This document shows positions 21,047 to 23,277 of a stretch of DNA of 64,000 nucleotides, one piece after another. This DNA is from Thermithiobacillus tepidarius DSM 3134 (lineage in GTDB: Bacteria; Pseudomonadota; Gammaproteobacteria; Acidithiobacillales; Thermithiobacillaceae): positions 62,001 to 126,000 of the forward strand of contig NZ_AUIS01000005.1 of NCBI RefSeq assembly GCF_000423825.1, given 5' to 3'. The first letter of the stretch is position 1. The number at the start of each line of letters is the position of its first letter. A model generated the notes under the pieces. The model ran no database searches, was not told the DNA's origin, and was given only the letters and a program-made list of their open reading frames with translations. The position numbers and the translations under genes were made by a program.

Positions 21047-21538
21047 CTACTTCCCGCGACCGTACAGGTAGCTGGAAAACTCCGTGTAATCCTGGGACAC
21101 CCGGCGGAACAGGTGATCCAGGCTGATGATGACGTGCTCCAGCAGGTTCACCGCAATGTAGGGGTGCTCCACCCGCAGGCGCTTGTAGCGGGCGCGGGTC
21201 AGGACCAGCACCTGGGTATCCTCGCTCTTGGCCACCAGCCGCGCGCTGCGGGGGCGGCGGTCGAAGAAGGACATCTCGCCCATCACCTCCCCCTCCACCA
21301 TGCGGCCCACCTCCTGCTGATCGCCGGTGGGCGCCTCGTAGATCAGGGCCACCTCGCCCTTCACCACGAAATAGAGTGCTTCGCCGAGGGTGCCGATGTC
21401 GGCGATGACCTCGTTCTTGGAGAAATGGGCGTGGGTGACGTATTCCAGCAGCGTGTTGATCTCCTGCATGGTCAGGGATTCGCACAAATGCTGGTGCTTC
21501 AGAAACTGGCTTAGCTCCACCTTGTGGGCGGCTGACAT
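21047..21538 (-). CDS. Cyclic nucleotide-binding domain protein
   Basis: 163 residues from ATG 21538, with AAGGAG 7-8 bp upstream. A cNMP-binding beta-roll covers about 20-130 (FSKNEVIADIGTLGEALYFVVKGEVALIY, then MVEGEVMGEMSFFDRRPRSARLVA, the phosphate-binding cassette with Glu and Arg), followed by a single C-terminal helical segment. No helix-turn-helix DNA-binding domain, so this is not a CRP/FNR activator; it is probably a stand-alone ligand sensor or partner-binding protein. The speD promoter fires in the opposite direction about 135 bp away. Confidence 0.88.
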   Translation of the reverse strand: MSAAHKVELSQFLKHQHLCESLTMQEINTLLEYVTHAHFSKNEVIADIGTLGEALYFVVKGEVALIYEAPTGDQQEVGRMVEGEVMGEMSFFDRRPRSARLVAKSEDTQVLVLTRARYKRLRVEHPYIAVNLLEHVIISLDHLFRRVSQDYTEFSSYLYGRGK

Positions 21539-21924
21539 GTCCTTGCTCCTTATGTATTGGCGGTGCGCCCCGCCGGCAATGCCGATCGCCGGCGGGGCCA
21601 TGCCACTCCTGTCCTCGTGGCGTCCCCAGTATATCATGCCGTGTCGCGGAGTTAAGCAACCCTGCAAAAAGTCTTGCATCCCGCGGCCCGCCTCCCTATA
21701 ATGCGCCGCTTTCACTGTTTCCACGGCACCGAAAGCTGCACCGGGGGGAAACGCCGTCACCGACGGCCGAAGCGGCCCAAACCCTCAGGGGAATACGCCA
21801 AATCCAAAACCTAGGGCTGTCTGGGGGTGCACGGGAGCTACTTCTTAAGCGGCCGCTCGCTGGCCTTTCTCCGCAAAGCGGAGGACCGTCAGCTGGCTTT
21901 CTCTTGTTAGGGGGGGCTTGACCG
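21539..21924 (+). other. 386-bp intergenic region with long structured speD leader
   Basis: No open frame of substance. The first half holds the promoter of the minus-strand cyclic-nucleotide gene and, further on, the strong + strand promoter at 21674-21702. The remaining about 215 nt up to the speD start would be untranslated leader. It contains at least two perfect hairpins: GCCGTC/GACGGC (21753-21767) and CTCCGC/GCGGAG with loop AAA (21869-21883). The speD ribosome site AGGGGGG is at the very end. May be a riboswitch, an attenuator, or a separate small RNA. Confidence 0.6.
21674..21702 (+). promoter_or_regulatory. Sigma-70 promoter of speD leader
   Basis: TTGCAT (21674-21679) and a perfect TATAAT (21697-21702) with an optimal 17-bp spacer, the best sigma-70 promoter I see in the window. 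The start is expected near 21709, which gives an unusually long leader of about 215 nt before speD. Confidence 0.8.
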
Positions 21925-22326
21925 ATGCGCTCTTTGGGACATCAAATCGTTGCAGAATTCTACCACTGCGACAAGAACATCCTCAGCGATGTTGACCTCG
22001 TGACCGATGCCATGCTGGAAGCGGCCCGCCGCACCGGCTGCACCATCGTCACCCAGACCTTCCACCATTTTTCCCCGTATGGCGTCAGCGGCGCGGTCAT
22101 CGTGGCCGAATCGCATCTGGCCATCCATACCTGGCCCGAGTACGGCTATGCCGCCGTCGACATCTTCACCTGCGGCGACACGGTCTTCCCGGAGCAAGGC
22201 CTCACCTACCTGAAGGAAGCCCTGCGCGCCCAGCAGGTGTCCACCATGGAAATGAAGCGCGGCCAAGTGGACATGATGGGCGTGGACCCCAGCCAAGTCA
22301 CCGTCAAGCTGGCCGCCAGCGCCTGA
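21925..22326 (+). CDS. speD: S-adenosylmethionine decarboxylase proenzyme
   Basis: 133 residues, the short bacterial SpeD form (class 1B type). The self-cleavage site that creates the pyruvoyl group is in VAESHLAIHTWPE: Ser about 63 becomes pyruvoyl, and the His and Cys of HTWPE...FTCGD are catalytic. The product, decarboxylated SAM, donates aminopropyl groups to putrescine. It precedes speE by 111 bp on the same strand and is preceded by a strong promoter and long leader, so expression is probably controlled in the leader. Confidence 0.96.
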   Translation: MRSLGHQIVAEFYHCDKNILSDVDLVTDAMLEAARRTGCTIVTQTFHHFSPYGVSGAVIVAESHLAIHTWPEYGYAAVDIFTCGDTVFPEQGLTYLKEALRAQQVSTMEMKRGQVDMMGVDPSQVTVKLAASA

Positions 22327-22437
22327 CGGCGCCCACGGCCGTCCGTCCGCGGGCGGCCGTTGCCCATCCCCAATCCCGCAACCCACGGCTCGGCCAGACT
22401 GCGACCCGCCTGAGCCTTGCTTTTCCATGGAGGCACT

Positions 22438-23277
22438 ATGAGCACGGAACTGTGGTACTCGGAGCGCTGGGAAGAAGGCCGCTCGGCCATCAGCCTCAAG
22501 GTCCTCGAAGTTCTGCATCGGGAGCAGAGCCCCTATCAGACCATCGAAATCTTCCGCACCGAAAGCTTCGGCACTCTGATGACCCTGGACGGGCTGGTCA
22601 TGGTCACCGACCGGGACAACTTCGTCTATCACGAGATGATGTCCCACCCGGCCCTCTTTTCCCATCCCGATCCCAAGCGCGTGCTCATCATCGGCGGCGG
22701 CGACTGCGGCACCCTGCGCGAGGTGCTCAAGCATCCCGGCGTCCGGCACGTGGACATGGTGGAGCTGGATGAGCGGGTCACCCGGGTGGCGGAGCAGTTT
22801 TTCCCCGAGCTGTGCGAAGCCAACGGCGACCCGCGCGCCCATTTCCATTTCCAGGACGGCATCCAGTGGGTGGCCGACGCGCCGGCGGGCAGCTATGACG
22901 TGATCATCATCGACTCCACCGATCCGGTGGGTCCGGCGGCGGGGCTCTTTTCCGCCCAGTTCTACGGCAACTGCCTGCGCGCCCTGGGCGAACGGGGTGT
23001 CGTGGTGGGGCAGAGCGAGTCCCCGCTTTTCCATGCCGAGCTGATCCGCAGCGTGCGCGCCCGCTTGCGCGAGGCCGGCGCCAGCGACGTGGCCACCCTG
23101 CACTTCCCCCAGTGCACCTATCCATCCGGCTGGTGGAGCGCCACCCTGGGCGGCAAGGGTGTCAAGCTGGAGGAATTCCGCCATGCGGACGCCGCCGCCA
23201 AGTCCTTCGCCACGCGCTACTACAACGCCGCCCTGCACCGCGGCGCGCTGGCCATGCCGGAGTTCCTGCGGGACTGA
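22438..23277 (+). CDS. speE: Spermidine synthase
   Basis: 279 residues from ATG 22438, with GGAGG at optimal distance. ELWYSERWEEGRSAISLKV begins the N-terminal strand domain, then LDGLVMVTDRDNFVYHEMMSHPAL (putrescine/dcSAM-binding gatekeeper region), VLIIGGGDCGTLREVLKH (glycine-rich SAM fold), VELDERV, and DVIIIDSTDPVGPAAGLFS with the catalytic Asp. It transfers aminopropyl from decarboxylated SAM to putrescine. Cotranscription with speD is likely. Putrescine-forming genes are not in the window. Confidence 0.96.
   Translation: MSTELWYSERWEEGRSAISLKVLEVLHREQSPYQTIEIFRTESFGTLMTLDGLVMVTDRDNFVYHEMMSHPALFSHPDPKRVLIIGGGDCGTLREVLKHPGVRHVDMVELDERVTRVAEQFFPELCEANGDPRAHFHFQDGIQWVADAPAGSYDVIIIDSTDPVGPAAGLFSAQFYGNCLRALGERGVVVGQSESPLFHAELIRSVRARLREAGASDVATLHFPQCTYPSGWWSATLGGKGVKLEEFRHADAAAKSFATRYYNAALHRGALAMPEFLRD

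Follow-up and report, generated by a model that had tools for sequence, protein, structure and literature searches.

A conserved, putatively two-state leader RNA of speD as an orphan riboswitch candidate in Thermithiobacillus and relatives from three bacterial orders

The leader of speD in Thermithiobacillus tepidarius DSM 3134 (a genome of 2.96 Mb in 43 contigs, of which we analysed a stretch of 64,000 nucleotides, hereafter the window) harbors a conserved RNA element at window positions 21719-21932. We consider it probable, at roughly 0.6, that this RNA is a bistable translational control element, most likely a riboswitch in which a metabolite stabilizes the fold P1/P2 and thereby turns speD ON. 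Three bacterial orders have the element directly 5' of speD (the order of the window in 30 of 31 genomes, a second in 20 of 57 and a third in 7 of 109). It folds computationally into two alternative structures, and shows covariation both in helix P2 and in a competing helix over the ribosome-binding site (RBS), the anti-RBS helix. In the window speD is followed by speE, and in the second and third orders the operon reads speD-arginine decarboxylase-speE, the second-order decarboxylase of L161 being assigned by its likeness to the Pfam-confirmed copy in L164. The associated genes belong to a single pathway, with speD downstream as judged by tblastn and operons containing speE and PvlArgDC; given these polyamine operons, a metabolite of the polyamine pathway is the ligand to expect. 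The conservation, the covariation in P2 and the anti-RBS helix, the exclusive association with speD and the operon content together support the initial annotation of this DNA, which had suggested a structured cis-regulatory leader tied to polyamine synthesis; covariation in related genomes, the check it had named, is present rather than lacking. The features of the locus are collected in Table 1.

Table 1. Features of the speD leader and its surroundings (window positions)
Feature	Positions	Strand	Description	Basis
Promoter	21674-21702	+	TTGCAT -35 box (21674-21679), 17-nt spacer, TATAAT -10 box (21697-21702)	sequence
P1 5' strand	21719-21730	+	UUCC[A]CGGCACC, bulged A at 21723; anti-anti-RBS strand	nearly invariant; pairs with 21826-21837 in RNAalifold consensus
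P2 5' strand	21734-21742	+		covarying pairs, A-U/G-C and others
Variable apical region	21743-21813	+	contains hairpin CCGTCACCGACGG (21754-21766)	alignments; few nt left in smallest leaders
P2 3' strand	21814-21822	+	bulged U (elsewhere U or A)	alignments, RNAalifold
Conserved 3' strand	21825-21848	+	GGGUGCACGGGAGCUACUUCUUAA; P1 3' strand (21826-21837, bulged A at 21831) or anti-RBS strand	conserved block; duplex with RBS
Lineage-specific insert	21849-21906	+	contains hairpin CTCCGCAAAGCGGAG (21869-21883)	Acidithiobacillus-type leaders without it; shorter in L002
RBS, AUG, first speD codons	21907-21932	+	target of the anti-RBS strand	duplex predictions
speD	21925-22326	+	S-adenosylmethionine decarboxylase	PF02675, E 2e-41
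speE	22438-23277	+	spermidine synthase	PF01564 and PF17284

From 30 sequences RNAalifold picked, unprompted, a double-bulged P1, in which UUCC[A]CGGCAC pairs with GUGC[A]CGGGAG while two purines bulge out; above it, beyond a GAA/GGG junction, sits a second helix, P2, which has a bulge of its own (U or A). This register supersedes the one we had at first assigned to P1, which contained an A-C/C-A loop. In the smallest leaders P1, the junction and P2 amount to about 47 nt. The covariation score of P1 and P2 together was 0.139 against 0.086 for shuffles and was reached by none of 500 of these, while P2 displayed 21 cells changed on both sides, counts that are inflated by relatedness according to the tool's own warning and that come with an alignment (A2) fitted to a model of similar structure. 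The pairs of P1 are kept throughout (100%), yet nine of the ten lack any variation, and covariation cannot prove a helix that is nearly invariant. Apart from the bulged purines and the loosely conserved junction, the fold contains no strictly conserved unpaired pocket. The two perfect hairpins pointed out previously (CCGTC-ACC-GACGG and CTCCGC-AAA-GCGGAG) both exist but fall outside the conserved core, the first in the variable apical region and the second in the insert missing from Acidithiobacillus-type leaders. The overall folding energy of the window leader is unremarkable (z 0.01).

Free folding brought out the competing helix, in which GGGUGCACGGGAGYUACUUC pairs with the Shine-Dalgarno sequence, the AUG and the first speD codons over 18-23 pairs. 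As it uses the same 3' strand as P1, only one of the two helices can exist at a time; by computation, the leader has the alternative fold that a riboswitch expression platform requires. Several comparisons point to this anti-RBS helix: 1) In 40 leaders the duplex reached -19.5 to -28.5 kcal/mol, with z-scores of -1.6 to -5.8 relative to RBS sides shuffled by dinucleotides (-26.8 kcal/mol and z -4.4 for the window leader, L001); shuffles as good as the real duplex made up at most 1.5% in 37 of the 40 leaders and 3.5 to 8.5% in the other three. 2) In a fixed alignment of 19 leaders from the second and third orders, from which window-order leaders were excluded because their RBS spacing differs, 94.7% of the cells are paired, whereas sliding the strands leaves at most 60.7%, and the covariation score was matched by none of 500 shuffles. 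3) The clearest double change, from GGGAGC/GGCUU to GGGAGU/GACUU, is found in all seven third-order leaders, in which a C to U change directly after the invariant GGGAG goes with a change from G to A on the RBS side; it is probably a single event. Pair types read from the duplex predictions are biased towards pairs, as those duplexes were energy-optimized. 4) The helix loses stability when its strands are exchanged between lineages, with p 0.002 over 12 groups that are not independent of each other and 3 of 120 permutations over five clades. Two results speak against the helix. On the shorter inner anti-SD segment alone the same test gave p 0.17, and the short anti-SD stem by itself was dropped as an expression platform as not significant. 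In GC-rich loci, moreover, other segments sometimes pair with the 3' strand too: the RBS was the single best partner in 16 of 42 loci, although it ranked among the top 5% in 41 of 42 (a 43rd row was void and is not counted). L176 and L157 have G where the 3' strand otherwise bulges an A, so that in the alternative fold a G-U pair with the U of the start codon is preserved.

We propose two states. In the first, UUCCACGGCACC on the 5' side would pair with GGUGCACGGGAG to give the hairpin P1 with P2 on top, leaving the RBS freer; in the second, the same 3' strand together with CUACUUC would bind and hide the Shine-Dalgarno sequence, the AUG and the first speD codons. Both states would be populated in cells, and a metabolite of the SAM/polyamine pathway would, by stabilizing P1/P2, switch speD translation ON. 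A scan of 21500-22500 turned up no terminator-like site, and translation is therefore the likely controlled step. The predicted openness of the RBS, averaged over 42 leaders, is 0.44 with P1 forced against 0.17 with the anti-RBS helix forced (0.35 and 0.19, respectively, in the window leader), openness in the P1 state being only moderate. The anti-RBS state is predicted to be the more stable one in 34 of the 42 leaders, with a median difference of 2 kcal/mol, which could be small enough for a ligand to overturn; in the other eight P1 is predicted to be favored without ligand. An ON switch for speD would be best served by a pathway substrate, for instance SAM, rather than by an end product. More tentatively, and with distinctly less confidence than in the switch itself, the element may represent a new class of speD-only ON riboswitches of about 50 nt, in which one strand toggles between the 5' end of the RNA and the RBS with the start codon; if so, this would be a feed-forward polyamine riboswitch responding to SAM or another polyamine precursor.

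None of the Rfam 15 families matches the speD leader element. Using the Rfam covariance models we recovered no SAM or SAH riboswitch in the window at the gathering threshold and none up to E 10 in 21500-22100, nor did any of seven related loci match a SAM/SAH family at E values up to 1, so that the statement made earlier from the letters alone, that the leader has no SAM or SAH riboswitch core, is borne out and extends to every other Rfam family. Translational riboswitches of the SMK/SAM-III type hide the Shine-Dalgarno sequence, and the speD element is like them in having two mutually exclusive folds with the RBS masked in one; unlike them it gives no covariance-model match, and its masking strand also covers the AUG and the first codons. 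Direct sensing of polyamines or their precursors by bacterial RNAs has long been argued over: PMC10853860, in the part consulted, calls earlier claims unconvincing and presents its own spermidine riboswitch class as real. That class, as described there, consists of SAM-I variants with an intrinsic terminator acting as OFF switches in other bacteria. Like that class, the speD element is a leader RNA placed ahead of polyamine genes, speD and speE among them, but it gave no SAM-I match and no terminator-like site, and its predicted fold is another one. The odc1 and potE motifs (PMC8632094, in the part consulted) are likewise structured RNAs near polyamine-related genes; they lie at other genes, however, and odc1 incorporates an upstream ORF, whereas the speD element has no constant ORF. 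We found no description of a speD leader element in the open-licence PMC literature: searching PMC8632094, PMC7266159 and PMC11109978 by polyamine terms (and the first two also by speD) brought up no such element, and PMC8886135, in its consulted part, treats the speD-speE genes of these organisms and how they resemble the Acidiferrobacter ones, the leader not being mentioned there. We regard the element as a genuine and apparently undescribed cis-regulatory RNA of riboswitch-like architecture, an orphan riboswitch candidate, and being compact, confined to speD, unrelated to the class of PMC10853860 and clearly two-state, it offers a second candidate for RNA-based sensing in this pathway that can be tested directly.

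The same two-state RNA could also operate in the opposite sense, as an OFF switch in which spermidine or dcSAM favors the anti-RBS state, directly or through a general stabilization of bulged helices. This would follow the feedback repression that is the usual logic of biosynthetic genes, the spermidine class is OFF according to the consulted part of PMC10853860, and in the E. coli polyamine modulon bulged helices at initiation sites are altered by spermidine (PMC7177335, in the part consulted). The modulon is indeed similar in tying translation to polyamines through such helices; it differs in not being a conserved RNA family, and PMC7177335 does not mention speD. As the conserved bulges and the junction sit in P1/P2, and P1 is the helix that frees the RBS in the predicted folds, we regard an OFF switch as unlikely, if by no means negligible. 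We assign a somewhat lower probability still to a switch of the same architecture that responds not to a metabolite but to temperature, pH, a protein or a small RNA. At its smallest the element is just a bulged hairpin with no evident pseudoknot, which would suit a protein or a physical signal; in some clades a C-A mismatch faces the start codon, known hosts include acidophiles, and spermidine genes are reported to be acid-induced in the consulted part of PMC8886135. Against this, the element occurs only before speD, and Thermithiobacillus, the host of the window, is a neutrophile. Some of the host organisms are used in biomining, and spermidine has been linked to acid tolerance in these organisms (PMC8886135, in the same part).

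The distribution of the element was established in two ways. In a DNA search of 57 genomes (that of the window and 56 relatives, 31 in its order and 26 others) the leader was found in 30, all of them in the order of the window, and in none of the 26 others; the one window-order genome without a match is 69% complete, and G029, listed as 5% contaminated, had two leader copies on two contigs. Across this order two blocks of 22 and 43 bases are kept, CTGTTTCCACGGCACCGAAAGC and a block surrounding CTGTCTGGGGGTGCACGGGAGCTACTTC, respectively. The conserved parts of the element are a 5' strand, UUCCACGGCACCGAARGC, and a 3' strand, GGGUGCACGGGAGYUACUUC. The same blocks precede speD in the more distant loci L031-L033 and L037, with mostly different intervening and flanking sequence; the motif is absent from two other speD loci (L034, L035), and L029 and L030 begin too near speD for their leaders to be judged. 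Covariance models extended the element to the second order (15 of 41 genomes in a first search and 20 of 57 once a second model was used, leaving 37 without a match) and to the third (4 of 41, then 7 of 109, with no true match in 102). Elsewhere the element is rare: the 369 genomes examined from the class gave five true matches (four from the order of the window and one from the second), and the 398 from the phylum a single one, in the genome of the window itself; four further weak matches in the former and one in the latter were judged to be chance. In the covariance searches each positive genome gave one match, always before speD where the contig extends to it (L180 stops short). Weak matches in L141-L143, L169-L173 and L177 (E 0.003 to 0.6) were also dropped as chance: tblastn with the window SpeD did not find speD in L141-L143 or L169-L172, and L177, the eighth listed third-order match, reads as protein-coding, L173 and L177 being judged by reading alone. 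A 15-base pattern run on the 369 genomes proved far too unspecific; the two-block pattern had no exact match in viral contigs, nor the L158 leader in plasmids. Leader, promoter type and speD co-occur, and Acidithiobacillaceae speD-speE have been grouped with those of Acidiferrobacter (PMC8886135, in the part consulted), so that the conservation might merely reflect a promoter-leader-speD cassette moving between groups without any regulation; this is improbable, given that SpeD proteins diverge by as much as some 37%, yet the core blocks are both almost identical and the remaining leader is hardly alignable. Least probable of all, and rejected as an attenuator, is a translated leader peptide from the GTG of GUGCACGGGAGY (VHGSYF), for although codons 1-6 read VHGSYF or VHGSYY in most leaders, the frame is 0, 1 or 2 relative to speD, the length runs from 7 codons to open-ended even among close relatives, the G-run directly abuts the GTG, and no short reading frame is conserved.

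The claim that the leader holds no ORF is accordingly right in substance, this GTG frame of varying length and phase being the sole recurring one. It opens in the conserved 3' strand, and in several leaders (noted at L037, L158, L160 and L174) continues in frame into speD; in such cases an N-terminally extended SpeD is conceivable. The idea of an independent small RNA, also raised in the initial annotation, gained no support: no terminator-like site turned up in 21500-22500, and the conserved strand is complementary to the start region of speD itself. The leader is not 6S RNA, as that RNA is located elsewhere in the genome. Of the near-perfect sigma-70 promoter reported about 215 nt before speD, the boxes, the 17-nt spacer and the distance stand, with a leader of about 215 nt; "near-perfect" does not, since the -35 box is identical to TTGACA at only three of six positions and the pair was not among the listings of a promoter scan. 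Of 43 distinct leaders, 42 show a TTGCAT-type -35 and a TATNNT-type -10 at 8-16 nt 5' of the element, by a regular expression biased to that form, and the layout TTGCAT-16/17-TATNNT is seen again before related leaders. TTGCAT itself, unusual for sigma-70, is present in 37 of the 42 promoter-bearing leaders and in all three orders (by the same biased expression); its recurrence may reflect a dedicated regulator or cassette transfer. The gene adjoining the speD promoter on the opposite strand (21047-21565) is divergent and encodes a cyclic-nucleotide-binding domain (PF00027). In the third order the leader is preceded by a SPOR-domain gene (PF05036; L164:861-1454), and an upstream gene resembles, by eye, arginyl-tRNA synthetase.
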